From a virus, in the IMG/VR virus record IMGVR_UViG_3300042884_000572, positions 1 through 63,638 of that record: DNA of 63,638 bases. One strand, given 5' to 3'. Positions 632-46,439 of the stretch are shown here, piece by piece. Each line of letters begins with the position of its first letter. The first letter of the stretch is position 1. Below the pieces are notes generated by a model, which saw only the letters and a program-made list of their open reading frames with translations, searched no databases and was not told the DNA's origin. The position numbers and the translations under genes were made by a program.

Positions 632-634
632 ATA

Positions 635-1009: not shown

Positions 1010-1021
1010 AATATTTTATTT

Positions 1022-1029: not shown

Positions 1030-1034
1030 TCTCT

Positions 1035-2504: not shown

Positions 2505-2516
2505 TTAGTTTTTCTT

Positions 2517-2524
2517 TATAAATA
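2517..2524 (-). promoter_or_regulatory. candidate phage promoter box before 1035-2504
   Basis: Minus-strand GATATTTATAAAG, 12 bases from the ATG at 2504. It ends directly beside the stop codon of the upstream gene. Confidence 0.5.
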
Positions 2525-9251: not shown

Positions 9252-9509
9252 TTATATTTTGTTTATTATGTTTTTTACTCTTAAACTATTAAAAGAAATT
9301 TTAAATGGTATTGTTAGTTCACTATTATTAGGACCTAACTTTTCATCAACAGGTTCAATTTCCGTTAAAATGGTGTCAACCATCATTTTAACCATTTCAT
9401 ACTTAACTAAATGGATTTGAGACTCTCCCGAAGAACTTGTCATTTCCACTTCTTTTTCAACTTTATCCAAATCGATGTAGTAGTTTTCACCAAAAAGACT
9501 AAACAGCAT
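9252..9509 (-). CDS. hypothetical protein
   Basis: 85 residues, not recognised. The N-terminus is MLFSLFGENYYIDLDKVEKE, the middle is polar with a Ser-rich loop (TSSSGES), and the helix HLVKYEMVKMMVDTIL follows. It overlaps the end of the HAD-like gene by 11 bases and sits six bases before a glycosyltransferase, so it is part of a compact operon. No metal-binding or DNA-binding motif is visible. Confidence 0.6.
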   Translation of the reverse strand: MLFSLFGENYYIDLDKVEKEVEMTSSSGESQIHLVKYEMVKMMVDTILTEIEPVDEKLGPNNSELTIPFKISFNSLRVKNIINKI

Positions 9510-10880: not shown

Positions 10881-11327
10881 TTATTTTACAAATCTTTTAT
10901 TGGATTCCTGTGTATAAATCCTTTCTCTTAAATTAGATGATGAGAAATCGTGATCTCTCTTATTATAAACTAACTTAATACCCCTTTTAAGACAAATGTT
11001 TTTCGCGGTGAAATCACTGTCTTTATATTCCTCTCCAATAATTCTAACATCTAAATCTAAAGATGAAAAAATTGTAATTAATTCTTCTTCCGTGTTATAC
11101 GGAATAATTTTATCAACATGTTTAACCGCATCTAATTGTAGGTATCTTTCTACTAAACTTTGAATTGGTTTATTTTTTTGTGGTCTATCTATAGTCGGAT
11201 CAACTTGTAGTGCACATATTAAGTAATCACAGTATTTTTTACACTCCTCCAACATTATTACATGACCTGCGTGTAATAGGTCAAATGTTGAACATGTAAT
11301 TCCAATGGTTCTATTTTGTTTGTCCAT
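10881..11327 (-). CDS. TagD-like cytidylyltransferase
   Basis: 148 residues, the size of single-domain glycerol-3-phosphate cytidylyltransferases. The N-terminal GITCSTFDLLHAGHVIMLEE contains the HxGH nucleotide-binding motif (H19-A-G-H22). The C-terminal DHDFSSSNLRERI matches the position of the second conserved motif (RTxGISTT in TagD). It would activate a phosphorylated alcohol or sugar with CTP. Lying among glycosyltransferases, it may make a CDP-activated donor for phage glycan decoration. The substrate is not deducible; ADP-heptose-type nucleotidyltransferases share the fold and are an alternative. Confidence 0.75.
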   Translation of the reverse strand: MDKQNRTIGITCSTFDLLHAGHVIMLEECKKYCDYLICALQVDPTIDRPQKNKPIQSLVERYLQLDAVKHVDKIIPYNTEEELITIFSSLDLDVRIIGEEYKDSDFTAKNICLKRGIKLVYNKRDHDFSSSNLRERIYTQESNKRFVK

Positions 11328-11333
11328 TTAATT

Positions 11334-12848: not shown

Positions 12849-12850
12849 AT

Positions 12851-23387: not shown

Positions 23388-23413
23388 TATTTTATGAATT
23401 AAAACTAAATTAA

Positions 23414-24910: not shown

Positions 24911-24913
24911 GAC

Positions 24914-28680: not shown

Positions 28681-29883
28681 TTATAGATTGTCAAATAAAT
28701 TTGTTTCGGGATTATAAATTAAATCTTTATTCCCACCATTAAATAAATTGTAAATAAGTTTGTCATAGGTTTCAACCAAGACTTCATTGTCTGCATGGTA
28801 TCTTTGAAGAACTTTATCATTTCTTTCATGATATTCAATCAAATTATTATCGTGTTCTGATAATATGTAATCCAATTGTTTTGCACCACCAACTGTGTCA
28901 GATCCTTCATAATAATAACCAAGATCTTTACACAAAGGTGCGTTATGTAAAACAGGATAACCTAAAAACGCAGCATCCATATATAAATAATTCAACGGAT
29001 TTAAAACTTGATGACAAACAAGAACATCCAAATGTTGAGTTAGAATAAATGCAGTTTGATATCTTGCTTCGCCCGAAACTCTTTTGTCTTTATATAAATC
29101 AAAAGTTTTTACAATTGCCATAAACTCATGATTAGTTTTTAATTTTTCAGCGTTTGTAATCATCAAACTATTTATTTTTTCTTTACCAATTTCACCTCTA
29201 TAACATTCCTCAACCACCAAAGATGGTATAAGTGCATATTTAACTATATTAATATTTGGTTCCATAATACCAATAGTCTTTCTTTCTTTATTAGGAACGT
29301 ATTTATATCCTTTTTTGTATTTTCCTTCTAAGTGAGATCTTTCAATTTCTTTTACACTTTCCAATAAAAATTTGTGGTGCCAAATAAAAGGAACCATTAT
29401 CGCATCAGTTCTATACACCGTTTTGAAAAAACCAAAGTTTGTTTCGTGTTGTTGTGGAATATACCAAACCTCATCAAAAGTTGTTTCATATTCAATATAA
29501 TTTTTTTGATTTTCACCAAATAAAACTTTTTCAGTATTCAAAATGTAGTTATTACCACATTTGTATGCCACATATCTTTTATTAGGATCTTCTTTAAATT
29601 TTAATATTTTTGATTCGTGAATTTGTGCTCCCATCATAATAATAAGATCCATCTCCATATATTTGTCGTCAAAGAAATATATGTCAAGATCTTCTAAATA
29701 TTTTGCCTTTTTTAAATTATCACCTTCAACTTTAACACTATTTAAAATACAAACTTCATAATTGTTTGTTGAGTTTTTTAAAAGATGCGACAACATTAAA
29801 ACATTCTGTTTCATACCATTTGTCCATATTGACTCAGAGTAACTTTTGAGTGCTAACGTGATTCCAATTTTTAAATTTTTCAT
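28681..29883 (-). CDS. DUF2827-family glycosyltransferase-like protein
   Basis: 400 residues. The N-terminus LKIGITLALKSYSESIWTNG followed by MKQNVLMLSHLLK fits the DUF2827 pattern (I-W-x-N-G-x-x-Q-N). The middle has DLIIMMGAQIHESKI, VAYKCGNNYI, FDEVWYIPQQH and DAIMVPFIWHHKFLL. The C-terminal YMDAAFLGYPVLHNAPLCKD corresponds to the GT-B donor-site region. Members are GT-B-like proteins found in glycan clusters and large phages. Activity is inferred from fold and context. Three bases separate it from the J-domain gene. Confidence 0.75.
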   Translation of the reverse strand: MKNLKIGITLALKSYSESIWTNGMKQNVLMLSHLLKNSTNNYEVCILNSVKVEGDNLKKAKYLEDLDIYFFDDKYMEMDLIIMMGAQIHESKILKFKEDPNKRYVAYKCGNNYILNTEKVLFGENQKNYIEYETTFDEVWYIPQQHETNFGFFKTVYRTDAIMVPFIWHHKFLLESVKEIERSHLEGKYKKGYKYVPNKERKTIGIMEPNINIVKYALIPSLVVEECYRGEIGKEKINSLMITNAEKLKTNHEFMAIVKTFDLYKDKRVSGEARYQTAFILTQHLDVLVCHQVLNPLNYLYMDAAFLGYPVLHNAPLCKDLGYYYEGSDTVGGAKQLDYILSEHDNNLIEYHERNDKVLQRYHADNEVLVETYDKLIYNLFNGGNKDLIYNPETNLFDNL

Positions 29884-29886
29884 TTT

Positions 29887-30441
29887 TTATTTTTTTATAT
29901 GTTGATTTACAAATTGTAAAATAATTTGATTTTTTTCTTCATCTGTTTTTGCATTAACCCATAACCATAAAAAAGAAGTTTCCATAATTCTAAGTTCTTG
30001 TTTTTTTTCGTTCACAATTTTTTCTAAAAGAAAAATATTTGTTTCATCTAAATCTACCTCTATAGATAATTTTTGGGCTATTTTATATAAAGTCAATAGA
30101 TCATTTTTGTCATAAGCCCTTTGAGCCTCAGTATACGTAGTAACTAAATAAACATCTGTAGTTTTATCGGGATGACAAAATTTTGCAATACTTCTAAAAA
30201 CACTTTTTATTTTTAATAATTCTTCGTCAGAAACTTCGTATTTTTTATCAACTTTTTTATTTTCGTTTTTTGTGTCCCCTGTTTGAATTGGTATTTCTTC
30301 ACCAAGATCGTGAATTTCTTTCATGAATAATGGTCTGTAATGAGAATTAAACTCATCAACATATTCTTCTTCTGATTCTAATAGATTTAACTCCTTTATT
30401 AGAAGTCTTAACTTTAAGTTATTTAATTTTTTGTTTGACAT
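29887..30441 (-). CDS. J-domain-like (DnaJ-type) protein
   Basis: 184 residues. Residues about 68-125 contain a helix, then VFRSIAKFCHPDKTTDVYLV with the invariant HPD loop (90-92), then a helix YTEAQRAYDKNDLLTLYKIA, as in J-domains that stimulate Hsp70 ATPase. The flanks are acidic helices; there is no Gly/Phe region or zinc-finger domain. It may recruit host DnaK for virion assembly (the giant fibres nearby are likely clients) or redirect it. A TATTTATA box lies four bases upstream of the ATG. Confidence 0.75.
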   Translation of the reverse strand: MSNKKLNNLKLRLLIKELNLLESEEEYVDEFNSHYRPLFMKEIHDLGEEIPIQTGDTKNENKKVDKKYEVSDEELLKIKSVFRSIAKFCHPDKTTDVYLVTTYTEAQRAYDKNDLLTLYKIAQKLSIEVDLDETNIFLLEKIVNEKKQELRIMETSFLWLWVNAKTDEEKNQIILQFVNQHIKK

Positions 30442-30529: not shown

Positions 30530-33500
30530 ATGCCAATATATAATAGATTAACAGACCGTCAAAAAGTTTCAGCCGTAACTTTAAATGATATATTTCACGT
30601 AGTAGTTACGGGAGACACAACACAGAGCCCTCAAGGATCATCTTATTATGCTCCTTTGAGTGATCTACAATCATTATTAAGTGGTTCTACAGGTCCTGCA
30701 GGAACTTCAGGAACAAACGGAACAAGTGGAACGAATGGAACTTCAGGAACGGATGGTTCTAGTGGAACTAATGGAACATCAGGAACTAACGGAAGTTCGG
30801 GAACAAACGGATCAAGTGGAACAAATGGAACGTCAGGAACAAACGGAACTAATGGGACATCTGGTATTAGCGGATCTTCAGGAACTTCAGGTTCAAGTGG
30901 AAGTTCAGGTTCAAGTGGAAGTTCGGGAACTAATGGAACTTCAGGGACTAATGGGACATCAGGAATTAACGGGACTAGTGGAACAAATGGAACATCGGGA
31001 TCATCGGGCACAAGCGGGTCATCAGGAACCGATGGTACTAGCGGTTCTTCAGGGACTAATGGGACATCAGGAACTGACGGATCAAGTGGAACAAATGGCA
31101 CGTCAGGGTCTAGCGGTACAAATGGAACTTCAGGAAGTAGCGGAACTTCTGGAACAGATGGTTTAACATGTATAAATTATACTTTATCAGCACCAGGACC
31201 GACCGACTCACAATTTACAGGAACAACATGTGATGGAGTTCTACAAACAGGTAATGTTGCATCTGGAACCTCATACAGTGATTGTTTTATTAGTGGTTCT
31301 GTAACTATGAATAATGGTGGTATAATAACAAATAATGGAATTTGTGTTGGAACGTCAGGGACAAGCGGAACTAATGGGACATCCGGAACGAATGGAAGTG
31401 ATGGGACAAGCGGAACTAATGGAACTTCAGGAACAAACGGAACAAGTGGATCATCAGGTTCTTCAGGAACAAATGGCACAGACGGAACTTCGGGAACTAA
31501 CGGGACTTCAGGAACTAATGGAACAGATGGTACTAGTGGTCTAAATGGGACTTCAGGAACTGATGGTATAAGCGGAACGAATGGGACTTCAGGAACTAAT
31601 GGTTCAAGTGGATCGTCAGGCACAAATGGAACAGATGGAACAAGTGGGACTAACGGGACATCAGGGTCTTCAGGAACAAATGGAACTGACGGAACTAGTG
31701 GTTCTTCAGGAACAAATGGGGCCGATGGTTCAAGTGGAACAAATGGGACTTCAGGAACTAACGGGTCTAGTGGGACTAATGGGACTGATGGTTCAAGTGG
31801 GTCTAGCGGATCTTCAGGGACAAATGGAACCGATGGTTCAAGTGGGTCTAGCGGAACTAATGGAACTAGCGGTAGTTCAGGAACAAATGGTACAAATGGA
31901 ACTGACGGAACTTCCGGTACTAATGGAACCGATGGAACATCAGGGACAAACGGGACTAGCGGTAGTTCAGGAACAAATGGAACTGACGGAACTTCTGGTA
32001 CTAATGGAACCGATGGTTCTTCAGGAACTAATGGAACTGACGGAACATCGGGAACAAGCGGAACTGACGGAACATCAGGATCTAGCGGAACAAATGGTAC
32101 AAGTGGGACTAACGGAACGTCAGGAACTAATGGAACTAATGGGACCGATGGAACTTCAGGAACTAATGGAACTAGTGGGACAAACGGGACTAATGGAACA
32201 TCAGGCACAAGCGGGTCATCAGGAACCGATGGTACTAGCGGTTCTTCAGGGACTAATGGAACATCTGGCACTAACGGAACCAATGGAACTGACGGAACAT
32301 CAGGAACAAACGGAACCGATGGGACAAGTGGAACTAGCGGATCTTCTGGTACAAATGGAACTGACGGAACATCAGGAACAAGTGGGACAGGATTTAACAC
32401 AGTTCAAGATCCTGCATTAACAAGAGTATTAACTTCTGACGGCACTCCAAATGGGGCAATTGCCCAATCAGGTTTAACATATGATGGATTACAATTAACA
32501 GTTACAGGTCTTACATACACCAGTGGTATTACATCAACTTCTAAAATTACATTTCCACAAATAACAATCAATAGTAGTTATACGGCGACTACAAATGATT
32601 ACCTGATAGATGTTTCAGGAGGAACGTTTACAGTTTCATTACCAAGTGCTGTTGGTATTAAAGGAAGATTATTGGTTATTAAAAATAATGGTGGAGGTGC
32701 TGTAACCGTAGATCCGTTTGGAAGTGAAACTATTGACGGAAAACCATTTGTTATTTTAGGTGAAACAAACTCAATACAATTATCAAGTAACGGAACTGAA
32801 TGGGTTGCATTAGGATATAACATCTCAACAGTAAATTCTTCAACAGGTGTTTTTGAATTTACGGGACTAACAAAAGCATCAAATACAACATTTAATGTTG
32901 CACCTGTTAGAGGATGGATAGTTGATGATACAACTAACCCTTTAAGTCCCCAACTTTATTATATAGATTTTAGTGGTGGAACGTTTACCGATAATTATGT
33001 AACCACAGATTTTGAAACCTTTGTTTATTTAACAAGTGGTGGAACGATTGGTCAACAACCAACACCTCTTACCGAATCACAAAGAAGATTAAATATATTT
33101 TTAGGTAAAATTGGACACCCTGAAAAAACAACAATTAATTTAGTTTTTTCACAACCTGATTTTGTCCAATCTCCAATATCACAACTTCGTGATATGTTTG
33201 TTCCGATTAATTTAATTAATGGTGGAGTATATCCTTCACCTAATGGGGCTAATTTAAAAATTAATACAAGTGCGGGTTTTATATATGGTTTGGGTATTAA
33301 TTTTGTGTTGGATACATTAGAACCAAATTCATTATCAATATCAGGAACTAGTCCTTGCACATTCCAATATAGAACTCAAACAGGTGGAACAATAACAAAC
33401 GTTACTGATATTGATCCACTTAACTATGATGTTGGTGGAGTTAAAACACCAATAACAGGAACTAAAACAACAAACCAAAGAATTTTTTTATTACAAAATG

Positions 33501-35671
33501 GTTCGTTTAGAATTCAATACGGTCAAAATGTTTATACAACATTTGCTGAAGCGGTTGCATCACTACAGAATGAAACGTTCACACCTTTTCCTAATTTTGT
33601 TAACAATGCCGTTCTTATTGGGGTTTTAACGGTTACATCGACCGCAACTGATTTAACGGATCCTGCAAAGGCAAGATTTTTCTTCGCATCCAAATTTGGT
33701 GAAACTATTGGGGCTGCGGGAGGTGTATCGACAACAAACTTACAACAGGCATACAACAACTCATCTCAACCTGAAATCACAACTAATTCAACATTAGGTG
33801 CTGTTTCAATTAAAAGAGGTAGTGCTTCTGACGCTGATCATGTATTTGAAATTCAAGATGGTGCTGGTGTTGATAGAATGTTAGTTAATGGTTCAGGTAG
33901 AACAACAACGACAGATTTAACAATTACAGGTCTTACAGTTAATTCAGGATTGACAAGATTTTTAGTTGTCGATACAAGTGGAAACACATATTACAGAACA
34001 AGTGGTGCCGATGGAACATCGGGAACTAGCGGTTCTTCAGGAACAAATGGAACTAGCGGTTCTTCAGGAACAAACGGGACTAGCGGTTCTTCAGGGACAA
34101 ACGGCACATCCGGCACTAATGGAACATCTGGAACCAATGGAACTTCAGGGACTAATGGAACTAGTGGTAGTTCAGGCACTGACGGAACATCGGGAACAAA
34201 TGGAACTAGTGGAACTGACGGAACAAGTGGAACAGGATTTTCATCAATTTCACCAACAACAAATAATAACATATTAACGGCAAACGGAACATCAAATTCT
34301 GCAGATTCAGAACCAAATTTAACTTTTGATGATATAAATACTATTTTAAGTGTTACAGGTAGAACTGATATATTAGACTCAACCTCAGCTCCAGCACCTT
34401 CGTTAAACATTATTAGTAACCCAACAACATTGATTAAAAGAGTAATATCTGTTACTAATTCAGGTGACGGTATAAATACAAATGATCTATTTGGAGTTCA
34501 AACATTAGTAACAGGAGCGGTTAATAGTGCAATTGGATACTCTACTGACGTTTCAGATGCTATAGGAGAAAATATTGGTGTTGATATTATAAATGCTTCA
34601 AGTCAGTCAGGATCAACTCAATGGGGATCAAGAACAAACGTTGTGAGTGCTGGACCGGATATTAAATATGGTCACTACACTTTATTAGCCAACGGAGGTA
34701 AAGATAATTATGGTAATTATAATCAAGTTTCTGACGGGACAAATTTAAACACAGCTTACTATGGTAATGTAACGGGAATTGTAAATAAATTTGGTTATGT
34801 ATTACAAGGAACAAACTCTTCGGCAAAACCATTAGGTGGTGATACACAATATGGTGTGTCTCTTACCGTTAATGGTGCAGGTAATACATCGAGCACACAA
34901 AAATACGGAGGTTACTTTGATGTAAGTGGGGATGCTAAAGGAAATAGTGGTATATTCACCAGAGCTCAAGGTGCCACCGCATCCAATTATGGTGTAGAGG
35001 CATATGCATCGGGTATATATGGAGATAATTATGGTATTTACGCTTTAAATGATACAGTAGTTAGTGGGGGTGGAGATACTCAATACGGTGGGTATTTTGA
35101 ATCCACTGGTTTTGGTGATGTGACATCAACAATTAAATATGGTGTTTTTGCATCGGTTTCTAACACAGCATTAGAAAACTATGGTGTATATACTATATCT
35201 TCGGGTGGAGATAAAAATTATTCATTATATGCGGCCGCTGGTAGATGGACATTAAGACACGACCCGAATGTCGAATTAGGTATAAGTGACCCTGAAGGTT
35301 ATGGTGACATTGTATATTTTGGTGGTGGAGGAAGTTCATTTGTTGCCGGTGATGTTGTTTATTTAACTGCAACAGGTGATTGGGCACAAACAGATGCGGG
35401 TAATCCTGCCAACTCAACAAATATGTTAGCATTAGCACTTGGTAACAATGTATCAGATGGACTTTTGATTAGGGGTTATGCGTATTCAAGTAGTTGGAGT
35501 TGGACCATTGGTGCACCTCTATATTTGGTTTCTGGAACTGCGGGGGCTATGTCAAATACAGCACCATCAAGTGGTGGTGACGTTGTTAGAATAGTTGCCT
35601 ATTCTGTAGATGCTGCAACAGGAGGGAAAAAAATATATTTCAATCCTGATAATAGTTGGACAATAGTTTAA
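30530..35671 (+). CDS. giant collagen-like tail fibre
   Basis: 1713 residues. The N-terminal 55 residues (RLTDRQKVSAVTLNDIFHVV) look like an attachment domain. Three Gly-X-Y blocks follow: about 55-210, 274-621 and 1159-1236, built from GTS, GTN, GTD and GSS triplets with almost no Pro. Spacer domains are beta-rich; the two after blocks 2 and 3 start with the same GTGF-x5-14-LT-x-(D/N)GT pattern, showing duplication. Region about 1330-1580 has repeated YGxY-type strands (KYGGYFDVSGD, QYGGYFESTG, NYGVYTIS), probably a beta-helix. The C-terminal 120 residues (GDVVYLTATGDWAQTDAGN) form the likely tip. Ser/Thr hydroxyls on nearly every triplet make it a prime O-glycosylation substrate. Confidence 0.85.
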   Translation: MPIYNRLTDRQKVSAVTLNDIFHVVVTGDTTQSPQGSSYYAPLSDLQSLLSGSTGPAGTSGTNGTSGTNGTSGTDGSSGTNGTSGTNGSSGTNGSSGTNGTSGTNGTNGTSGISGSSGTSGSSGSSGSSGSSGTNGTSGTNGTSGINGTSGTNGTSGSSGTSGSSGTDGTSGSSGTNGTSGTDGSSGTNGTSGSSGTNGTSGSSGTSGTDGLTCINYTLSAPGPTDSQFTGTTCDGVLQTGNVASGTSYSDCFISGSVTMNNGGIITNNGICVGTSGTSGTNGTSGTNGSDGTSGTNGTSGTNGTSGSSGSSGTNGTDGTSGTNGTSGTNGTDGTSGLNGTSGTDGISGTNGTSGTNGSSGSSGTNGTDGTSGTNGTSGSSGTNGTDGTSGSSGTNGADGSSGTNGTSGTNGSSGTNGTDGSSGSSGSSGTNGTDGSSGSSGTNGTSGSSGTNGTNGTDGTSGTNGTDGTSGTNGTSGSSGTNGTDGTSGTNGTDGSSGTNGTDGTSGTSGTDGTSGSSGTNGTSGTNGTSGTNGTNGTDGTSGTNGTSGTNGTNGTSGTSGSSGTDGTSGSSGTNGTSGTNGTNGTDGTSGTNGTDGTSGTSGSSGTNGTDGTSGTSGTGFNTVQDPALTRVLTSDGTPNGAIAQSGLTYDGLQLTVTGLTYTSGITSTSKITFPQITINSSYTATTNDYLIDVSGGTFTVSLPSAVGIKGRLLVIKNNGGGAVTVDPFGSETIDGKPFVILGETNSIQLSSNGTEWVALGYNISTVNSSTGVFEFTGLTKASNTTFNVAPVRGWIVDDTTNPLSPQLYYIDFSGGTFTDNYVTTDFETFVYLTSGGTIGQQPTPLTESQRRLNIFLGKIGHPEKTTINLVFSQPDFVQSPISQLRDMFVPINLINGGVYPSPNGANLKINTSAGFIYGLGINFVLDTLEPNSLSISGTSPCTFQYRTQTGGTITNVTDIDPLNYDVGGVKTPITGTKTTNQRIFLLQNGSFRIQYGQNVYTTFAEAVASLQNETFTPFPNFVNNAVLIGVLTVTSTATDLTDPAKARFFFASKFGETIGAAGGVSTTNLQQAYNNSSQPEITTNSTLGAVSIKRGSASDADHVFEIQDGAGVDRMLVNGSGRTTTTDLTITGLTVNSGLTRFLVVDTSGNTYYRTSGADGTSGTSGSSGTNGTSGSSGTNGTSGSSGTNGTSGTNGTSGTNGTSGTNGTSGSSGTDGTSGTNGTSGTDGTSGTGFSSISPTTNNNILTANGTSNSADSEPNLTFDDINTILSVTGRTDILDSTSAPAPSLNIISNPTTLIKRVISVTNSGDGINTNDLFGVQTLVTGAVNSAIGYSTDVSDAIGENIGVDIINASSQSGSTQWGSRTNVVSAGPDIKYGHYTLLANGGKDNYGNYNQVSDGTNLNTAYYGNVTGIVNKFGYVLQGTNSSAKPLGGDTQYGVSLTVNGAGNTSSTQKYGGYFDVSGDAKGNSGIFTRAQGATASNYGVEAYASGIYGDNYGIYALNDTVVSGGGDTQYGGYFESTGFGDVTSTIKYGVFASVSNTALENYGVYTISSGGDKNYSLYAAAGRWTLRHDPNVELGISDPEGYGDIVYFGGGGSSFVAGDVVYLTATGDWAQTDAGNPANSTNMLALALGNNVSDGLLIRGYAYSSSWSWTIGAPLYLVSGTAGAMSNTAPSSGGDVVRIVAYSVDAATGGKKIYFNPDNSWTIV
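30692..31159 (+). repeat. collagen-like block 1 (Gly-X-Y, coding)
   Basis: About 52 consecutive Gly-X-Y triplets, mostly GTS/GTN/GSS/GTD. Nine-base periodicity is blurred by frequent synonymous changes. Confidence 0.9.
31007..31062 (+). repeat. 56-base exact repeat, copy 1
   Basis: Starts GGCACAAGCGGGTCATCAGG. Identical to 32204-32259 inside block 2, whereas neighbouring triplets differ at synonymous sites. Confidence 0.9.
31349..32392 (+). repeat. collagen-like block 2 (Gly-X-Y, coding)
   Basis: About 116 consecutive Gly-X-Y triplets, the longest block, ending GTSGTGF. Confidence 0.9.
32204..32259 (+). repeat. 56-base exact repeat, copy 2
   Basis: Same sequence as 31007-31062, 1.2 kb downstream; suggests recent exchange between blocks. 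Confidence 0.9.
34004..34237 (+). repeat. collagen-like block 3 (Gly-X-Y, coding)
   Basis: About 26 triplets; ends with the same GTGF exit as block 2. Confidence 0.9.
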
Positions 35672-35673
35672 AT

Positions 35674-38559
35674 TTAAAACTGTCTATTATCGATATAGAT
35701 AATAACTTCATCGTAGTATTCTATAAAATGTTCGTTCCATAAATCCCACTTTATGTTCACACCATCAACAGAAAAAACTTGGTGATTATTCATATTTTTA
35801 AGATAAGTGTCTCTAAATTTTCTAAACTTTTCTTTACTACCTTTATAATAACTCTCATTTAAATGCCATTCTCCTGATATTTTTTTAACATTATTTTTTA
35901 TAAAATCATAATTTTCATCATTAAAAATATCGTATTCACCACCTTCACAATCAGTCTTTAGAAAATCAATTTTTTCAATACCATATAGATCAATAAATTT
36001 TTTAAAAGTAATACTTTCCATTTCAGTTTGTAAACCATCAACAGAATTAAAAAGTTTGTTATTTTGAGTTAGGTTATTAGTGTTGGATATTCCCTTCATT
36101 ATATGTGTTACTGGATGTCCTATTGTGTTTTTTACTAAAGTCGGAAACTCTTCTTCACAAGGTTCAAAACAAAAAACGTGTTTTGGATTTTTATTTAAAA
36201 TAGAAAAAGTAAAAGGTCCCAAACTAGCACCAATGTCTAAAACAATATCTCCTTTCTCAACTTCAAAAAATCTTTCGTATATTTTGTTTTCAAAAATTTC
36301 TTCATTTATTGTTTTAATATACCAATCGTTTTGGGTTCCCCAATCAAAAGATTTTTCCTTATTTATTATTTTATTTATTTCTTTTATCACCATGTCTGAT
36401 GTTATTTTTTTGGAACATTCGAATTGACGATCAGTTCCTTTATGATGTGGACACCAATTCCAATCACCCGCATTTAATCTATCATTATTAAAACACCCAT
36501 GACATACGTTTTCATTTATAACTCTATATGTGTCTAACTTTGTTTCTGCAAATTTTTCACTAAATCCTGAAATTAAAATGACTGGTAATTTACATGCCCA
36601 AGCCAACCAAGATAAACCTGAACCTAACCCAATGAAAAACTCACAAGTTGATAAATCATCAATTACTTCTTGTAGATTACCCCCTTTAAATAAGGTAACT
36701 CCGTTTGGGTAAAAATTATTCATATACCCATCACCCTCTTTTGAATATATCATACACTCATACCCTAATGCATCAAGATGATCTATAACGGACTGCCACC
36801 CATCAGGATTGTTCCAATACTTTGCCTGTGCGGTTGAATGAAATCCAATACCGACTTTTTTCTTTTTTGAAACATTTGGTAATTTAAGTTTTGGTCTAAT
36901 CTCTTTGTATTCTAATCCCAAAATATCTGTTGCGGTTTTTTGAAGCGATTGTCTTCTAAAATCTAAAGGGTGTGAATTATAGTTAACTAATCCGTCTTCA
37001 TTGTAAAACCAACCCAATCTGTATTGTGCAACAACGTTATTTACCACATCACCTGGTTCTACAAATTCAATATTTGGATATTGATCCTTAAATAAAGAAT
37101 TCATAAATGTGGACACAATAAGTTTACAATCATGTTTTTTTCTAAACTCTTCACAATACGGTATCCAAGCTAAAGTATCCCCCAAAGATTTTGATCCAAA
37201 TGAAATATAAACCCTTTGATCTTTTAGATTTAAAACATTAGAATAAATTAATTTATCGTCTTCATAAACTTCTGTTTTCCATTTGGTAAAATATTCTCTG
37301 TTTAATTTGATCCAATGATTAATTGGTAATTTGTTATTATAAATTAAAAAATCATTTTCATCATAAAATCTAATATCAAAAATTTTATCACTTTGACCCG
37401 TGATTTCAAAAAATGGATTGACAACAAAATGTTGACTAAAAGTATAATCATTCAAAATTGGTTCATTATGCATTTTCTTTGAGTTGTAAACTTCTTTATA
37501 AAAATTCAATAACTCTTCACTAAAGTTATTATTATTTGGTATTTCATATGTTGATTCATTATTTATTAACGTAAGTAAAGAATCTTTTATTTTTGTATAA
37601 TCATTAGAAGAAATTTCATAAATGAATTCATTAAACATCCCCACGTATTGTGGTAAGTTTCTTGCTAAAATTTTAAGCCCATAATTAATGGATTCTCTAA
37701 TTACCAATGGATTACATTCCCAAGTTGAGTTAAACATTAAAACATCAGAAGCGATCATAAAAGAATCAACATCATTTCTTTCTCCCCATACCGTAACATT
37801 TTTTGGTAAGTTTTCCATTAAAGGTTTCCAATAACTTTCAAAGTTTGGAGCTTGATTTCCAATAAAATGAAAATGTAAATTTGGATTAGAATCTTCTAAT
37901 AATCTTGCAACTTCAATACCTTCTTTTTGATTTTTACCTTCGGTCCATAAACCAACGTTTAGTATATGAATTTTTGACGTATCAAAATTTAATTCTTGTT
38001 TAATTTTAACCTTATTTGAAATATCTTTTGTTTTATTTTCAAAAGGAAATATCATTAATTTTTTTGGTGATGGGGTATTGTTGAATTGTGATATTTGGTG
38101 GTATGGTGTTACCAAAGAATAATAATCAGGATGTAGTTTTTTCTTTTTGTTTCCGTCATACCAAACATTATGACAAGTTTCTACAATTTTCCAAGTTCTA
38201 TTATTGTCATATAATTGATTTAATAAATCAAATGGTATTCGATTAAAACTTTCAAACGCTTCAGGTATTTCTTCACAATGAACAATATCAATATTGTTTT
38301 GCTTTATAATATCTATTAGTTGGTATTTTTTATAAACCTCATCAGTTCCCCCTAATGCCCAAAAATGACCGACATCTAATAATTCAATTATTTTATTTCT
38401 TTGGGTAACATAAGTATCACTGAATTGCGAATACTCAACTAAGAAAATTTCTATTTGATCTTTGTATTGTTGTAGAGATTCAATTCTTTTTAAAACAAAT
38501 TGTGGCATCCCTCCTGTTGATAGATGGGGGGTAAGATATAATAATTTAATTTTATTCAT
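35674..38559 (-). CDS. GT4 / O-heptosyltransferase-like / FkbM methyltransferase fusion
   Basis: 961 residues, three enzymes in one chain. Residues 1-365 form a GT4 domain: LLYLTPHLSTGGMPQFVLKR, HILNVGLWTEGKNQKEGIEV, and the E-x-I-x-x-G donor site at RESINYGLKILARN. Residues about 370-450 form a beta-rich linker. Residues about 450-735 form a GT9-type domain like the TibC/Aah autotransporter O-heptosyltransferases: ISFGSKSLGDTLAWIPYCEE, FIGLGSGLSWLAWA, and a four-Cys finger (Cys686, 689, 703, 715) equal in layout to the TibC iron finger. Residues about 765-925 form an FkbM methyltransferase (DIVLDIGASLGPFTFSIL, DFLKTDCEGGEYDIF). Likely glycosylates Ser/Thr repeats on virion proteins and methylates the sugar. 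Convergent with the collagen-like fibre gene, two bases apart. Confidence 0.8.
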   Translation of the reverse strand: MNKIKLLYLTPHLSTGGMPQFVLKRIESLQQYKDQIEIFLVEYSQFSDTYVTQRNKIIELLDVGHFWALGGTDEVYKKYQLIDIIKQNNIDIVHCEEIPEAFESFNRIPFDLLNQLYDNNRTWKIVETCHNVWYDGNKKKKLHPDYYSLVTPYHQISQFNNTPSPKKLMIFPFENKTKDISNKVKIKQELNFDTSKIHILNVGLWTEGKNQKEGIEVARLLEDSNPNLHFHFIGNQAPNFESYWKPLMENLPKNVTVWGERNDVDSFMIASDVLMFNSTWECNPLVIRESINYGLKILARNLPQYVGMFNEFIYEISSNDYTKIKDSLLTLINNESTYEIPNNNNFSEELLNFYKEVYNSKKMHNEPILNDYTFSQHFVVNPFFEITGQSDKIFDIRFYDENDFLIYNNKLPINHWIKLNREYFTKWKTEVYEDDKLIYSNVLNLKDQRVYISFGSKSLGDTLAWIPYCEEFRKKHDCKLIVSTFMNSLFKDQYPNIEFVEPGDVVNNVVAQYRLGWFYNEDGLVNYNSHPLDFRRQSLQKTATDILGLEYKEIRPKLKLPNVSKKKKVGIGFHSTAQAKYWNNPDGWQSVIDHLDALGYECMIYSKEGDGYMNNFYPNGVTLFKGGNLQEVIDDLSTCEFFIGLGSGLSWLAWACKLPVILISGFSEKFAETKLDTYRVINENVCHGCFNNDRLNAGDWNWCPHHKGTDRQFECSKKITSDMVIKEINKIINKEKSFDWGTQNDWYIKTINEEIFENKIYERFFEVEKGDIVLDIGASLGPFTFSILNKNPKHVFCFEPCEEEFPTLVKNTIGHPVTHIMKGISNTNNLTQNNKLFNSVDGLQTEMESITFKKFIDLYGIEKIDFLKTDCEGGEYDIFNDENYDFIKNNVKKISGEWHLNESYYKGSKEKFRKFRDTYLKNMNNHQVFSVDGVNIKWDLWNEHFIEYYDEVIIYIDNRQF

Positions 38560-38963: not shown

Positions 38964-40208
38964 ATGAAAATATTTGTTCAAATCGCGTCGTATCGCGACC
39001 CTCAGCTTATACCAACAATAGAAAATATGTTGGAGAATGCCAAAAGACCAAAAAACATTGTAATTGGTGTGGCAAGACAATTTCATCCTGAAGATGGTTT
39101 TGATGATCTATCCAAGTATGAAAAAGATAAAAGATTTAGAATCCTAAATATTCCTTACACAGAATCAAAAGGAGTTTGTTGGGCAAGACATCAAGTTCAA
39201 CAACTATATGGTGGTGAAGAATATACCCTTCAGATCGACTCTCACATGAGATTTGAAAAGAATTGGGATGACGAAATGATTAAAATGATTAAACAACTTC
39301 AAAAGAAAGGTCATAAGAAACCTTTATTAACGGGGTATGTTTCATCTTTTGACCCTGAAAACGATCCTGCAGGTAGAGTTACTGAACCATGGAGAATGGT
39401 TTTTGATAGATTCACTCCTGAAGGTGTTGTATTCTTTTTACCTGAAACTATACCAGGTTGGAAAGAAATGAAAGAACCAATTCCAGCAAGATTCTATTCT
39501 GCACATTATTGTTTTACGTTAGGTGAATTTTCAACCAAAGTTCAACACGATCCTGAATTTTATTTCCACGGAGAAGAAATTTCAATTTCAGTAAGAGCAT
39601 ATACTCACGGTTATGATTTATTCCACCCACATAAAGTTCTTGTATGGCACGAATATACAAGAAAAGGTAGAACAAAACAATGGGACGATGATAAAGAATG
39701 GCATTTAAGAAATACCGCATGTCATATTAAAAACAGACAACTTTTAGGAGTTGATGGTGAAACGTTTAATGGTGATTACTCTGAATGGTTTGGAACTGAA
39801 AGAACCGTTCAAGATTACGAAAAATATGCTGGTATTCGTTTTGAAACAAGAGGGATTCAACAAGAAACAATAGATAAAAAATATCCACCAAATACATATA
39901 ATTTTGAAACCGAACAAGATTGGAAAAATTCATTCTCAACAATTTTTAAACATTGTATTGATATAAACTATGTTAGTGTTCCTGAAAAAGATTATGAATA
40001 TTGGGTAGTTGCTTTCCACGATGAAAATGACGAAACTTTATATAGAAGAGATGCTGACATTAATGAAATCAACGGATTCTTCAGAGACCCTGATGGGTAT
40101 TGTAAAGTGTGGAGAGAATTCAACACAACTAAAAAACCTAAGTATTGGGTTGTATGGCCTTACTCAACTTCTAAAGGATGGTGTGATCGATTAACAGGAA
40201 ATTTATAA
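38964..40208 (+). CDS. GT60-like polypeptide GlcNAc-transferase
   Basis: 414 residues. The N-terminus MKIFVQIASYRDPQLIPTIE, then NIVIGVARQFHP, ESKGVCWARHQVQQLYGGEE and YTLQIDSHMRF (the D-x-H metal site, Asp92-His94) match the GlcNAc family PF11397 (CAZy GT60). Later DPEFYFHGEEISISVRAYTH and WHEYTRKGR also fit. The founding GT60 enzyme, Dictyostelium Skp1 GlcNAc-transferase, modifies hydroxyproline in a protein, and related enzymes modify Ser/Thr in mucin-like repeats. The phage enzyme therefore likely starts O-glycans on Thr-rich virion proteins. The C-terminal 130 residues are of unclear role. Four bases separate it from the carbamoyltransferase. Confidence 0.8.
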   Translation: MKIFVQIASYRDPQLIPTIENMLENAKRPKNIVIGVARQFHPEDGFDDLSKYEKDKRFRILNIPYTESKGVCWARHQVQQLYGGEEYTLQIDSHMRFEKNWDDEMIKMIKQLQKKGHKKPLLTGYVSSFDPENDPAGRVTEPWRMVFDRFTPEGVVFFLPETIPGWKEMKEPIPARFYSAHYCFTLGEFSTKVQHDPEFYFHGEEISISVRAYTHGYDLFHPHKVLVWHEYTRKGRTKQWDDDKEWHLRNTACHIKNRQLLGVDGETFNGDYSEWFGTERTVQDYEKYAGIRFETRGIQQETIDKKYPPNTYNFETEQDWKNSFSTIFKHCIDINYVSVPEKDYEYWVVAFHDENDETLYRRDADINEINGFFRDPDGYCKVWREFNTTKKPKYWVVWPYSTSKGWCDRLTGNL

Positions 40209-40212
40209 TAAC

Positions 40213-41790
40213 ATGGCAAATATTTCGTTTTACGGTTCCCACAATGCCGCTGTAGTTGTGGAGGATCAAGGAAAAATTATTACAGTAATAGAGGTAGAAA
40301 GATTTTTAACTCAAAAAAATGCAGGTTATTCACAATATTTAGTATCATATTCAAGACCTTTTTTATTAAAACATATTATACAATATATTAAAGATGAGTT
40401 TGGTATTTCTGAATTTGATAAATGTTATTACTTAAATTCTGATACGGTAGAAGGATCTGAAAAAGTTCATTACCAAGAATTAATACCAGCAAAAGAATAC
40501 ATCAATTCATTACACCATTTAAGTCATGCGGCTTGTGGATTCTATCAAACAGATTATAATGAAGCGTTAATCATTTCTTTTGATGGTGGAGGTAATGACG
40601 GGTTCTTCAATGTTTATCACGCTGAAGATAGAAATAACATAAATGTAGTTGAGAAATTCAATATTGATTTAGGATTTCCATATATGTCATTTGGTGATTA
40701 CTTGGGTGACATTACAAAAGAACCGGCACTTAATATTGGTAATTTAGTTTATGCAGGAAAAATAATGGGTCTTTGTTCGTATGGAAACGTAAACGAAGAA
40801 TGGTTACCACATTTTGAGGAATACTATAGAAGAAAACCAGATGGTTTAAATTACTTACAATACCTACAAGAACTTAGTGAACAAACAGGTTTATCATTTG
40901 ATATGGAAAATCGAATGTCAGGTCAGTTAGGGTGGGATGTTGCTAAGACATCACAAATTGCGTTCGAGAATGTTTTTATGGAATTGGCTCAACCATTTTT
41001 AGATCAATTCCCTAATATTCCTTTAATTCTTGTTGGTGGATGTGCGTTAAATATCTTGTTAAACACAAAATTACACCAAGAACTTAATAGACCTGTGTTT
41101 GTTCCACCAAATCCTAATGATTGTGGAATTGCAACAGGTATGATGTTAAATCACATTAAACCTGAAAAGGCAATTGATATTACTTATGCGGGTATTGGTA
41201 TTTTAGATAAACACACATTAATGTCTCATGTAGAAGAACGACACGCTCTTCCTCTTAAAACTGAAATGTTAGTTGATGATTTAGTAGATGGTAGAATTGT
41301 TGGGGTTGTCAGAGGTAATGCCGAACATGGACCAAGAGCTTTAGGAAATAGAAGTATTATTTGTAATCCAGCCTATGAAAACATGAAAGACATTTTAAAT
41401 GCAAAAGTAAAAAATAGAGAGTGGTATAGACCATTTGCACCTGTTTGTAAATTAGAAGATGTTTCTAAATATTTTAATTTCGAAGGTGAGAGTAAATGGA
41501 TGGGATTTTGCCCAACGGTGAAAGAAGAATGGAGAGAAAAATTAGTTTCAATTACACATGTTGACGGGACTGCAAGAGTTCAAACAGTTACAGAAGAACA
41601 AAATCCTTGGTTATATAATTTATTAACCGAATTTGAGAAAAAATCAGGAATTGGTGTTTTATTAAACACATCTTTCAATGTAAACGGAAAACCAATTCTT
41701 TCTCGATATAGTGATGCGATTTGGGTTTATGATAAAACAGAAATGGATTGTCTTTTATTAGGTGATTATTATTTTAGAAAAAGAGCATGA
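40213..41790 (+). CDS. O-carbamoyltransferase (NodU/CmcH family)
   Basis: 525 residues, close to family length. The N-terminal ASKHA-type domain has ISFYGSHNAAVVVEDQGKII, LHHLSHAACGFYQTDYNEAL and LIISFDGGGNDGFFNVYHAE; LILVGGCALNILLN follows. The C-terminal YrdC-like part has VRGNAEHGPRALGNRSIICN, VKNREWYRPFAPVC and LLNTSFNVNGKPI. Family members transfer carbamoyl from carbamoyl phosphate to hydroxyls of sugars or antibiotics via an adenylate. In this cluster it likely carbamoylates a phage glycan. Its stop overlaps the next gene by four bases. Confidence 0.88.
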   Translation: MANISFYGSHNAAVVVEDQGKIITVIEVERFLTQKNAGYSQYLVSYSRPFLLKHIIQYIKDEFGISEFDKCYYLNSDTVEGSEKVHYQELIPAKEYINSLHHLSHAACGFYQTDYNEALIISFDGGGNDGFFNVYHAEDRNNINVVEKFNIDLGFPYMSFGDYLGDITKEPALNIGNLVYAGKIMGLCSYGNVNEEWLPHFEEYYRRKPDGLNYLQYLQELSEQTGLSFDMENRMSGQLGWDVAKTSQIAFENVFMELAQPFLDQFPNIPLILVGGCALNILLNTKLHQELNRPVFVPPNPNDCGIATGMMLNHIKPEKAIDITYAGIGILDKHTLMSHVEERHALPLKTEMLVDDLVDGRIVGVVRGNAEHGPRALGNRSIICNPAYENMKDILNAKVKNREWYRPFAPVCKLEDVSKYFNFEGESKWMGFCPTVKEEWREKLVSITHVDGTARVQTVTEEQNPWLYNLLTEFEKKSGIGVLLNTSFNVNGKPILSRYSDAIWVYDKTEMDCLLLGDYYFRKRA

Positions 41791-42674
41791 AAACAAAATT
41801 AGTAACTGCGTTTTATACTGATATTATTGGGTTTCCTTTTTTTGGTCATGAGTCCTTTGCAAGACATGAGCGTTATTTACATTCATTAAGAACTTTAAAC
41901 AATATGAATACCGAAATTGTTTGTTATTGTAATGACACTCAATATGATTTAATGACCAAATATTGTGAAGAGTTTAATTTGACTAATGTAACCATTAAGA
42001 TTTCAAACCTTAAAGATTATCCAAAAACAAATAGAATGTTAGAATTAAAAAGATCTAACGATCAATTTAATTTTTATCATGAAGTTGATTGGAATAAGTT
42101 GTATCTTCTTTCTAAAGAGTATGATGAATCTTATGATTATATTTATTGGATTGACTGTGGTTTATCTCACCGTGGTTTATTCACTTTAAAATACAATCCA
42201 CACTCCGATAAAATTACAGGTTTATCAAGAGATTGGGAAAACTATTCATTCACAAATATATTTTGTCCTGAATTATTTCCAAAGATAAATAATTGGGTAG
42301 GTGATAAATTAATCAATTTGGCAAACACTATGTTTTCCCACAACCCAAACGAAATTAGATCTGTTTATAAAAATAACAACGATTACAAACACATGTCAGT
42401 TGGTGGTATTTTAGGGGGACACATTTCAAAATTAAATTGGTTCATAGAACAATTTGATAGAATAAGTGATATAAGTTTAAATGAAAATTTTATATTAAAT
42501 CACGAAGGTATGATAACAGATTTAGAGTTTGAAAATCCTGAAATGTTTAAAACTTATAGTTTTGACACTTGGTATCATGATGACTTTTGGCTTACAACAC
42601 CGATTTTCGATAGAGAATCAATTAAAAATAAAACACACTTCGTTCATTTTTTTGAAAAGGAGTTAGGAATTTAA
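41787..42674 (+). CDS. HtrL/YibB (WlaTC)-like putative glycosyltransferase
   Basis: 295 residues. Segments KLVTAFYTDIIGF at the N-terminus, then YDYIYWIDCGLSHRG (about 115-129) and the C-terminal HFVHFFEKEL resemble the HtrL/YibB and WlaTC proteins of LPS clusters, which carry a D-x-G motif in a GT-A-like fold. The next gene has a second copy of this fold. Activity is inferred. ATGA overlap with the carbamoyltransferase shows translational coupling, so it probably works on the same glycan. Confidence 0.6.
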   Translation: MKTKLVTAFYTDIIGFPFFGHESFARHERYLHSLRTLNNMNTEIVCYCNDTQYDLMTKYCEEFNLTNVTIKISNLKDYPKTNRMLELKRSNDQFNFYHEVDWNKLYLLSKEYDESYDYIYWIDCGLSHRGLFTLKYNPHSDKITGLSRDWENYSFTNIFCPELFPKINNWVGDKLINLANTMFSHNPNEIRSVYKNNNDYKHMSVGGILGGHISKLNWFIEQFDRISDISLNENFILNHEGMITDLEFENPEMFKTYSFDTWYHDDFWLTTPIFDRESIKNKTHFVHFFEKELGI

Positions 42675-42683
42675 AAATTAAAT

Positions 42684-45062
42684 ATGGAAGATTTTTTTGA
42701 TAAGGTATTACACTATTATGGCAGAAAGGGCCAAAAACTATTTATGATCAACATTGGTGCCATGGACGGTGTTATGTTTGATAGTATGAGCGGTTATGCT
42801 CAAATATACAATTCAGATGTATTATATGTTGAACCAATGAAACCTCATTTTGAAAGATTGGTAGAACATAAAAGTAATAACCCTGGAAATAAATTTGAAA
42901 ATTCGGCGATTAGCGATTTCAACGGAACTATTACTATGAAAACAATTCCAATTGAGGTTGTTGACGAAGGTTTAGTTCATCCTGCTTTTTATGGTATGAG
43001 TGTGATTGATCCTACTAAAAATGGTATGGGTAGTGAAGGTGATAGAGAAGTTGTTGAAAAATATGCCGTTGATGTTGAGGTAAATTGCATCACATGGGAT
43101 ACTCTTGTTCAAAGACACAATATAGAACATTTTGATGTGTTGTCAGTGGATACTGAAGGACATGATTACACAATTTTTAAACAAATTGATTTACAAAAAT
43201 TTAGACCTAGTCTGATTAGATTAGAGTGGTGTAATATGACTGATGAAGAAAAAACTAACATTACAAATAAATTTACAGATGCTGGTTATGTTTATGAAAT
43301 ATTAGGTAATATGGATATTGATGCAATTAGAAAAGATGTTTACGATGAAATCGAATTATCTTTAAATCCTGTAAAACCAAAAGAGGAAAAATCAAAATCA
43401 AGACTTACCATTGTTACTGGTTTATGGAATATCAAAAGAGAAGAATTAAGTGAAGGTTGGTCAAGATCTTATGAGCACTACTTAGAAAAATTTTCACAGT
43501 TATTAGATACATCTTGTAATATGATAATTTTTGGTGATTCAGAATTAGAAAGTTTTGTTTTTTCTAAAAGAAGTCATGAAAACACACAATTTATTAATAG
43601 ACCACAATCGTGGTTCAAAGGAGAATTCTATGATAAAATTCAAGAAATTAGAACAAACCCTGAATGGTATAATTTAGCGGGTTGGTTAAAAGACTCCACA
43701 CAGGCCAAATTAGAAATGTATAATCCGCTTGTAATGTCAAAAATGTTTTTATTACACGATGCGGTTATATTAGATAAATTTGATTCTCAAAAATTATTTT
43801 GGTTAGATGCAGGAATTACAAACACAGTGAATCCAGGTTATTTCACACATGATAAAGTTTTAGATAAGGTGGAAAATTTATTTGATCGTTTCACATTTGT
43901 TGCATTCCCTTACGAAGCAGACAAAGAGATTCATGGATTTGATATTGACGCAATGACCGAAATGGTTGGTCAAAGAGTTAATAAAGTTTGTCGTGGAGGT
44001 TTCTTTGGTGGATCTAAACCAATGATTAGAGAAATGAACACTCTATATTACGACTTAATGAAAACTACTTTAAGTAGAGGTCTTATGGGAACTGAAGAAA
44101 GTTTGTTTTCAATTATGACATATACAAACCCAAACAATATTGATTATGTAGAAATTGAGTCTAATGGGTTATTATATAAGTTTTTTGAAGACGTTAAAAA
44201 CAATAATGTAGAAATTAAAAGTTTTAGAAAGGGAACCCCAACCAAAGTTAGAAATGGAGATGTTGGTTTATATGTAATTACATTCAACAGTCCTAAACAA
44301 TTTGAGACGTTAATTAATTCTATGTATGCTTATGATGAAGATTTTATTCATAAAACAAAGAAATTTTTATTAGACAACTCAACTGATTTATCTACCACAC
44401 CAAAATATTTGGAACTGTGTGAAAAATATGGTTTTGAGCACATTAAAAAAGATAATATAGGTATTACGGGAGGTCGTGTGTTTGTTGCTGAACATTTCCA
44501 CGAATCAAATATGGATTACTATATGTTCTTCGAAGATGATATGTTTTTCTACAATGGACAAGATTTTACTTGTAAAAATGGGTTTATGAGAAAAACTAAA
44601 AATTTATACGAAAAAGTTTTACAAATATCTAAAAAAGAAAATTTTGATTTTTTAAAATTTAACTTTACAGAATTTTATGGTAGTCATGAAAAACAATGGG
44701 CGTGGTATAATGTTGATCAAGAGTATAGAAATACTATCTGGCCTGACAACCCAAAACTTCCTGTAAACGGTCAAGATCCAAATGCTCCTTATTTAGAATA
44801 TAAAAATATTAAATCATATGAAGGGACACCTTACGCCACGGGTGAAGTTTATTTATCAAATTGGCCGATAATTTTATCTAAAGAAGGAAACTACAAATGT
44901 TATATTGAAACTAAATACACCTATCCTTACGAACAAACTTTAATGTCTCATTGTTATAAAGAAATGAAGAAAGGAAAAATACATGCGGGAGTTCTTCTTA
45001 TGACACCAACTGAACACGATCGTTTCGAGTTTTATGAAGGTGGGTTAAGAAAAGAATTTTAA
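42684..45062 (+). CDS. FkbM methyltransferase / HtrL-like / GT2-like fusion
   Basis: 792 residues, three domains. Residues 1-225 form an FkbM methyltransferase: MINIGAMDGVMFDSMSGYAQ, VLYVEPMKPHFERL, and DVLSVDTEGHDYTIFKQIDL. Residues about 235-505 form an HtrL/YibB-like transferase starting RLTIVTGLWN, with KLFWLDAGITNTV (D-x-G, about 371). Residues about 515-790 form a GT2-like domain starting GDVGLYVITFNSPKQFETLI, with YYMFFEDDMFFYN as metal site and a conserved ending around TYPYEQTLMSHCYKEM. It is nine bases after the previous transferase gene and probably makes and methylates a glycan branch. FkbM is at the N-terminus here but at the C-terminus of the 35674-38559 fusion. Confidence 0.75.
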   Translation: MEDFFDKVLHYYGRKGQKLFMINIGAMDGVMFDSMSGYAQIYNSDVLYVEPMKPHFERLVEHKSNNPGNKFENSAISDFNGTITMKTIPIEVVDEGLVHPAFYGMSVIDPTKNGMGSEGDREVVEKYAVDVEVNCITWDTLVQRHNIEHFDVLSVDTEGHDYTIFKQIDLQKFRPSLIRLEWCNMTDEEKTNITNKFTDAGYVYEILGNMDIDAIRKDVYDEIELSLNPVKPKEEKSKSRLTIVTGLWNIKREELSEGWSRSYEHYLEKFSQLLDTSCNMIIFGDSELESFVFSKRSHENTQFINRPQSWFKGEFYDKIQEIRTNPEWYNLAGWLKDSTQAKLEMYNPLVMSKMFLLHDAVILDKFDSQKLFWLDAGITNTVNPGYFTHDKVLDKVENLFDRFTFVAFPYEADKEIHGFDIDAMTEMVGQRVNKVCRGGFFGGSKPMIREMNTLYYDLMKTTLSRGLMGTEESLFSIMTYTNPNNIDYVEIESNGLLYKFFEDVKNNNVEIKSFRKGTPTKVRNGDVGLYVITFNSPKQFETLINSMYAYDEDFIHKTKKFLLDNSTDLSTTPKYLELCEKYGFEHIKKDNIGITGGRVFVAEHFHESNMDYYMFFEDDMFFYNGQDFTCKNGFMRKTKNLYEKVLQISKKENFDFLKFNFTEFYGSHEKQWAWYNVDQEYRNTIWPDNPKLPVNGQDPNAPYLEYKNIKSYEGTPYATGEVYLSNWPIILSKEGNYKCYIETKYTYPYEQTLMSHCYKEMKKGKIHAGVLLMTPTEHDRFEFYEGGLRKEF

Positions 45063-45635: not shown

Positions 45636-46439
45636 ATGGAATTTACTATAGGTCAAAACTCTACGCTCCCTCTTTTAAAATTACAGGTTGTAAAGGATGG
45701 GATCAGTGATTACGAGTCCATGATGAATTTTATTGAAACTTCGTCGATATTTTTTTCGATGACAAACATTGAAACTGGTGTTTTAAAAATAAATGCTAAG
45801 GCGGCAAGTTTTGTTGAAAAGTTAGAGTTAAACCCAAATGCTAGTCCTGAGTATTACGTTTATTATAAATTCACACCTCAAGATACAAACAAAGTTGGAA
45901 GATATGAAGGTCAGTTTGTTTTCATAAATGAAACAGGAACATTAGTATTGCCAATTAGAGAAAAGTTATATATTAATATAACTGAAAGTTATATGTCAAA
46001 TGATTTGGTATATAATAATTGTTATGTTTTGGATTATAGATGTTGTGTAACACCTTTTCCAACAAACACACCAAGTCAAACTCCATATCCTATTTTGAGT
46101 ATGACTCCCACTCAAACGCCTACTCAAACACCTACACCAACAGTAACACCTACAAACACATTTACACCAACAGTAACACCTACAAACACATCCACACCTA
46201 CTCAAACATTAACACCAACGGTAACACCAACAAATACATTTACGCCCACCCAAACGGTAACACCAACAAATACTCAAACAGTAACACCAACAAATACTCA
46301 AACAGTAACACCAACTCAAACACCTACCCCAACTCCAACACCAACTCAAACACCAGCGGTCGTTGTGTTAATCAATCCAATAATAACCGAAAATGATGAA
46401 TATATTATCGTTGGTAATAATGAATATTTAAAATTTTAA
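45636..46439 (+). CDS. BppU-like baseplate protein with Thr-Pro tail (paralogue 2)
   Basis: 267 residues. The first 140 residues align by eye with 45089-45595 ([60 protein letters not shown]; then CC). The tail is much longer, about 90 residues of TPTQTP / TPTNTFTP repeats, then a short hydrophobic end ([20 protein letters not shown]) that could be a docking peptide. The tandem pair suggests duplication followed by expansion of the Thr-rich arm. Confidence 0.65.
46104..46353 (+). repeat. Thr-Pro/Gln/Asn repeat arm (coding)
   Basis: Degenerate repeat encoding TPTxTxTPT units, with an 18-base unit around ACAGTAACACCAACAAATAC recurring several times. Confidence 0.85.

Follow-up and report, generated by a model that had tools for sequence, protein, structure and literature searches.

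A phage enzyme joining GT4, TibC-type and FkbM domains probably glycosylates an adjoining Ser/Thr-rich collagen-like protein

A phage-encoded enzyme with a collagen-like neighbour

We analysed a viral contig of 63,638 nt (IMG/VR record IMGVR_UViG_3300042884_000572, positions 1 to 63,638, the window in what follows), which most likely encodes a protein O-glycosylation enzyme that decorates the product of the adjoining gene, a collagen-like and probably fibre protein, and then extends and methylates the attached sugar. The features on which this reading is built are collected in Table 1. The genomes of many aquatic phages encode very long proteins with Gly-Ser/Thr-Ser/Asn repeats and contain numerous glycan genes that are unexplained, and the present analysis proposes a testable link between both. 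The TibC-like domains fall into two groups with contrasting gene neighbours, and this division is what is new here.

Table 1. Features of the window relevant to the proposed glycosylation pathway
Feature	Position	Strand	Description
Three-domain enzyme	35674..38559	-	961 aa, ATG start; GT4, TibC/Aah-type O-glycosyltransferase and FkbM methyltransferase
GT4 (GT-B, retaining) domain	37465..38559	-	Residues 1-365; PF00534 3.9e-14; Z ~25 to GT4 structures
TibC/Aah-type domain including N-terminal beta-barrel	36349..37449	-	Residues 371-737; TIGR04414; TibC 9e-67; Z 40
Four-cysteine metal finger (putative), Cys686/689/703/715	36415..36504	-	Aligned to TibC Cys339/342/358/370
FkbM-type SAM methyltransferase domain	35677..36327	-	Residues 745-961; PF05050, TIGR01444
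Collagen-like protein, probable acceptor	30530..35671	+	1713 aa; PF01391 collagen 1.1e-78
Longest Ser/Thr-rich Gly-X-Y stretch	31349..32392	+	116 triplets, within the collagen-like protein
GlcNAc-type glycosyltransferase (GT60-like), candidate partner	38964..40208	+	PF11397 1.4e-70; phrog_24687 6.2e-168
NodU/Nol-type O-carbamoyltransferase, candidate glycan-finishing partner	40213..41790	+	PF16861 9.8e-63; PF02543 1.3e-21
FkbM + HtrL/YibB fusion, candidate glycan-modifying partner	42684..45062	+	With ~300 further residues of no recognised kind
RfaE-II/TagD-like nucleotidyltransferase, possible NDP-sugar supply	10881..11327	-	Below both curated cut-offs

Domain organization of the enzyme

The sequence-only reading of this DNA had described a GT4, a TibC-like and an FkbM domain fused in one frame, and profile searches, sequence searches and structure prediction all bear this out. 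The frame is uninterrupted on the minus strand, and the plus strand of the same interval contains many stops. PF00534 (Glycos_transf_1) covers residues 185-344, corresponding to the C-lobe and preceded by the N-lobe (53 bits, cut-off 26.4). TIGR04414 (hepto_Aah_TibC) matches residues 396-731 (2.9e-88, 296.4 bits, cut-off 200), and a sequence search with the enzyme retrieves TibC of E. coli. The C-terminal domain is recognised both by PF05050 (residues 775-917, 7.1e-11, 43 bits, cut-off 22.7) and by TIGR01444 (43.1 bits, cut-off 37.7). The GT4 motif E281-x7-E289 is kept in every aligned homologue that possesses a GT4 domain, and the FkbM motifs DxGAS and KxDCEGGEY are also kept, with D775-x-G777 and K868-x-D870 present. 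An AlphaFold (AF2) model, for which the input was 31 sequences from the window and viral contigs, has a mean pLDDT of 83.8; the relative placement of its three domains is unreliable because the pTM is 0.59. Within this model, residues 3-361 superpose on GT4 enzymes including HepE and BshA. From the families of the three domains, it is a reasonable inference that initiating, extending and methylating activities are brought together in this single chain.

A trivial explanation of such an ORF would be misassembly, or decay, that fused unrelated genes with no joint function. We consider this exceedingly improbable, as the motifs of all three domains are intact, no internal stop interrupts them and we found no point that supports it. 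Moreover, the order GT4-TibC-FkbM is shared by 16 distinct complete viral proteins (the one of the window included) from separate samples, most of them ~62-72% identical to the window protein, which rules out an assembly accident. The combination had been called unusual for one phage protein; this is true of named records, in which it is uncommon, but it recurs among viral metagenome contigs. Since metagenome loci are not independent and several are near copies (e.g. L013-L018), distinct sequences were counted where stated. Besides these 16, the 49 distinct complete viral proteins with a TibC-type domain comprise six with GT4-TibC (two of which have a C-terminal extension), three with another long N-terminus followed by TibC-FkbM, one TibC-FkbM protein, five in which the TibC domain stands alone and 18 with other N-terminal extensions, which mostly give GT4 profiles where tested.

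The TibC-type domain: fold, metal finger and active site

The middle domain, for which a structural comparison with TibC had been proposed, models as the TibC fold: residues 371-737 of the AF2 model superpose on residues 21-393 of TibC with a Z score of 40.0 and an rmsd of 2.5 Å over 358 aligned residues. The four cysteines noticed beforehand (Cys686, 689, 703 and 715) are found at these positions and correspond one-to-one to Cys339, 342, 358 and 370 of TibC, with a spacing of x2-x13-x11 instead of x2-x15-x11. All four are retained in 54/54 distinct viral homologues, so this match is not due to chance; judging from the superposition on TibC and the alignment, they are predicted to lie together in space. 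In TibC, the four cysteines hold a ferric ion, and mutation of any one of them ends iron binding, dodecamer formation and activity (PMC4358343). By analogy, the finger of the window protein may bind a metal, presumably iron, and would hold together a TibC-like oligomer and its substrate groove.

The active site is conserved as well. TibC residues D110, T226, K230 and W305 correspond to D461, T576, K580 and W651 of the window protein, all nearly invariant. At the tip of the thumb, F265/V266 of TibC are replaced by Tyr/Met in most relatives, which preserves the hydrophobic character, and an equivalent of F368 is present. Two other positions differ: that of TibC Arg286, a contact residue for the adenine of ADP-heptose, is taken by a Val in the alignment, and that of Pro300, which sets heptose stereoselectivity in TibC, by G646. 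The Arg286 equivalent is kept in 64 of the 65 members of clade A and in only 15 of the 72 members of clade B, having been lost in 57 (both clades are described below). These two substitutions and the loss of Arg286 in most of clade B suggest that the donor may be a sugar nucleotide other than ADP-heptose. In the designation O-heptosyltransferase-like given to the domain by the sequence-only reading, membership of the TibC family stands on profile, sequence and fold (296 bits for TIGR04414 versus 14.5 bits for the heptosyltransferase I profile on the same domain), whereas the heptosyl label is put in question by the Val that replaces the adenine-reading Arg286.

Genes of the heptose pathway were examined as evidence on the donor. 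Among 30 phage records with a TibC-type domain, gmhA-like genes were present in three, none of which exceeded the cut-off, and rfaE-II-like genes in 13, one of which did. In the window, the candidate nucleotidyltransferase of this kind scores 69.6 bits with rfaE_dom_II (cut-off 181.5) and 62.1 bits with g3p_cytidyltrns (cut-off 165.4). It belongs to a second glycan cluster (10881-14118, minus strand), together with a two-domain GT2, a GT92-like protein and a methyltransferase.

The collagen-like neighbour

The genes of the enzyme and of the collagen-like protein are convergent, with 2 bases between the ORFs. The collagen-like protein contains 196 Gly-X-Y triplets in runs of at least 5, in which X is Thr (148) or Ser (40) in 188 of 196 cases, and Y is Ser (104), Asn (60) or Asp (27), with one Pro in total. 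From the type of repeat and the structural genes around it, this protein is probably a virion component and would be a fibre. A similar repeat protein lies near the TibC-type gene in most viral loci of sufficient length. As both phage and bacterial genes of clade B adjoin them, such Gly-Ser/Thr repeat proteins are the probable target of the enzyme, a candidate absent from the earlier reading. On the far side of the collagen-like gene, the window also encodes a DUF2827 protein (28681-29883, minus strand, 319.7 bits), which directly follows an ORF at 29887-30441 (minus strand).

Two clades of TibC-type domains with contrasting gene neighbours

A tree of 137 domains separates cleanly into clade A, which includes TibC, and clade B, which groups 22 bacterial proteins with all those of phages. 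Exactly this bipartition has a UFBoot support of 100 in IQ-TREE, and it was also recovered by FastTree. One scan of bacterial genomes yielded 80 loci with a TibC-type domain, 21 of clade B and 59 of clade A. By a strict count, 13/21 clade B loci and 0/59 clade A loci have Ser/Thr-rich Gly-X-Y repeats at a distance of 10 kb or less (p 6e-10), whereas strand-loop-strand (SLS) autotransporters are found within the same distance in 0/21 clade B and 41/59 clade A loci (p 6e-9). Repeats were detected with simple patterns. Of the eight clade B loci that fail the strict count, five (L344, L347, L349, L351 and L357) contain shorter or broken repeats, and for these the loose count departs from the strict one; in L352, L362 and L405, no Gly-X-Y repeats were found.

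Proline-type collagen contigs and clade A genomes served as null sets, the loci of a random 16-mer scan being too short for this use. At the scale of whole genomes, 11 of the 12 clade B genomes (2.3-5.1 Mb) contain the strict repeat DNA pattern, each at one or two sites, and in nine of the 12 it lies within ~1.3 kb of the TibC-type gene. Two of 15 clade A genomes contain the pattern, distant from the TibC-type gene.

SLS proteins were found neither in the window nor in any of 81 phage loci. Because the autotransporter partner and the adenine-contacting Arg were both tested and are both missing, we place the window protein in a sister clade of the autotransporter heptosyltransferases, with a TibC-like action that would be directed at a different acceptor.

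As TibC recognises a beta-helix (PMC4358343), the enzyme might instead act as TibC does and glycosylate a different protein of the virion or the host, such as a beta-helical tail spike or an adhesin, the repeats being a parallel trait of these phages, and further structural ORFs are indeed encoded nearby (21858-25639 and 45636-46439). The lack of SLS proteins in the window and in the phage loci argues against this explanation, as do the bacterial neighbours of clade B genes, which are small lipoproteins or secreted proteins having only the repeat in common with the phage proteins; we therefore hold it to be improbable. The bacterial neighbours also have little else in common with one another; examples come from Methylobacter, Methylomicrobium, Polaromonas and several gammaproteobacterial MAGs. 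In Methylobacter luteus, 41 bp separate the clade B gene from that of a GTAGTSG-repeat protein.

The enzyme could also modify a host surface glycan (LPS or capsule), for instance as a means of excluding other phages, and then the collagen-like neighbour would be coincidental, given that fibre and glycan genes cluster in phages. Glycosyltransferases near the tail fibres of pelagic phages have been read in this way (PMC7029224), LPS and EPS clusters commonly encode GT4 and FkbM domains, and the structures matched by the model include WaaG-like GT4 enzymes. However, the middle domain belongs to a family of protein O-glycosyltransferases and not to the LPS heptosyltransferases, as the profile scores given above indicate, and the contrast between clades A and B holds in bacterial chromosomes, outside the clustering seen in phages. 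Such clustering cannot explain the bacterial pairs, since the neighbours there are lipoproteins and secreted proteins and not phage fibres. We judge this explanation unlikely, and it is the bacterial cases that weigh most for a link between enzyme and repeat.

Association of the enzyme with Gly-X-Y repeats in phages

Of the viral contigs with a length of 25 kb or more, a TibC-type domain was present in 23/50 selected by GTSGTNGTSG repeats and in 1/35 selected by GPTGPQGPTG repeats (p 5e-6), two sets that may differ in lineage and habitat. The single positive contig of the proline type also contains Ser/Thr repeats, which lie at a distance of 2 kb from its TibC-type gene. Many of the 27/50 Ser/Thr-repeat contigs without a TibC-type gene are fragments. 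FkbM methyltransferases are enriched likewise (19/50 versus 2/35), and 16 of the 19 contigs are those with the TibC domain. Within phage genomes alone, the proximity of repeat and gene gives a combined p of 0.001 over seven contigs, a modest signal because clustering of fibre and glycan genes is usual in phages in any case.

The pair is also found in an isolated phage, Mel-JY01 of Microcystis, in which Ser/Thr-rich Gly-X-Y repeats flank the TibC-type gene on both sides and occur nowhere else in 190 kb. This cultivated phage opens the enzyme-repeat pair to direct examination. The gene in question (PP395634.1, 4750-8430) encodes a protein of 1226 aa that is annotated only as an FkbM methyltransferase and has a C-terminal TibC-type domain. 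The frames with GSSGTSG repeats span positions 2-3049 and 9444-9983 of this record. In a 735-kb phage (LR756501.1), a TibC-type domain is encoded near 580 kb and repeats are located at 586-588 kb; more than 1600 further matches to the repeat pattern lie on the other strand, and those of them that are listed lie from ~103.5 kb onwards.

A proposed glycosylation pathway

From the data presented above, we infer a pathway in which the TibC-type domain would transfer a first sugar onto Ser (or Thr) of the Gly-X-Y repeats of the adjoining collagen-like protein. The fused GT4 domain would then add a further sugar and the FkbM domain would O-methylate the glycan, which may be finished by the GT60-like transferase, the carbamoyltransferase and the FkbM-YibB fusion encoded at 38964-45062. 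In eukaryotes, members of the PF11397/GT60 family attach GlcNAc to polypeptides. In evolutionary terms, clade B would have exchanged the beta-helix of autotransporters for Ser/Thr-rich Gly-X-Y repeats as acceptor. A point against this pathway is that the beta-helix accepted by TibC is a fold unlike collagen. For TibC itself, O-glycosyltransferase activity on Ser is proven and extends to synthetic peptides (PMC4358343), so a domain of this type need not see a folded helix.

A broader possibility, which we put forward tentatively, is that clade B is specialised in glycosylating Ser/Thr-rich Gly-X-Y repeats, in phages and in free-living bacteria alike, with O-glycans taking over the role that proline and hydroxyproline have in animal collagen. 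The sugars would then lend stiffness or stability to a triple helix almost devoid of proline and give the phage fibre a variable coat, and the fused GT4, FkbM and other domains would be exchangeable modules determining the sugar pattern. A reason for placing sugars on a proline-free repeat is suggested by the cuticle collagen of the vent worm Riftia, in which, as related in two papers citing Mann et al. 1996 (PMC6953826, PMC11766948), glycosylated Thr and not hydroxyproline stabilises the triple helix. This is also a Gly-X-Y protein, but it is an animal one, served by other enzymes, and the parallel is one of principle only.

Relation to known systems

The closest known enzymes are the bacterial autotransporter heptosyltransferases (BAHT) TibC of ETEC and AAH of DAEC (TIGR04414; PDB 4rap, 4rb4). 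The window protein shares with them the fold with an N-terminal beta-barrel, the four-Cys finger, the equivalents of the catalytic D110, T226, K230 and W305, the hydrophobic thumb tip and the F368 equivalent. It differs from them in its separate clade, the change of Arg286 to Val and of Pro300 to Gly, the fused GT4 and FkbM domains, and the Gly-X-Y repeat protein that adjoins it in place of an autotransporter. Bacillus BclA and similar proteins are bacterial collagen-like proteins carrying O-glycans with methylated sugars. Unlike the collagen-like protein of the window, BclA has Pro-rich GPT repeats and depends on different glycosyltransferases. Mycobacteriophages (Che8 gp110, Corndog gp38, Myrna) are also reported to use phage glycosyltransferases to decorate their own virion proteins (PMC12363180), but the targets are capsid and tail tube, and that source does not describe the enzymes as TibC-type.

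Within the open-access papers searched, we found no earlier report connecting TibC or a heptosyltransferase with phages or collagen-like repeats, and no paper on clade B or its link with Gly-X-Y repeats. A phage protein automatically annotated as Aah/TibC already exists (BFVD A0A6J5SVC1). The TibC family, so far associated with autotransporters of pathogens, would thus be extended to a new class of acceptors in phages and environmental bacteria, and a recognisable branch of enzymes would predict which proteins and residues are glycosylated. It would also offer a route to asking whether sugars substitute for proline in bacterial and viral collagens.

Other TibC-type proteins and associated genes

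In bacterial members of clade B, the TibC-type domain mostly stands alone (17/22 proteins are shorter than 520 aa). A clade A protein of 771 aa from a deltaproteobacterial MAG (L421:9632-11947) carries a C-terminal FkbM domain of its own; judging from this case, TibC and FkbM domains may have been fused on more than one occasion. Finally, many relatives of the window (L002-L041) have, near the three-domain gene, an extra GT9-like gene encoding ~310 aa with ~50 bits to the TibC profile; none was seen in the window, and an example is L002:7959-8897 (minus strand).
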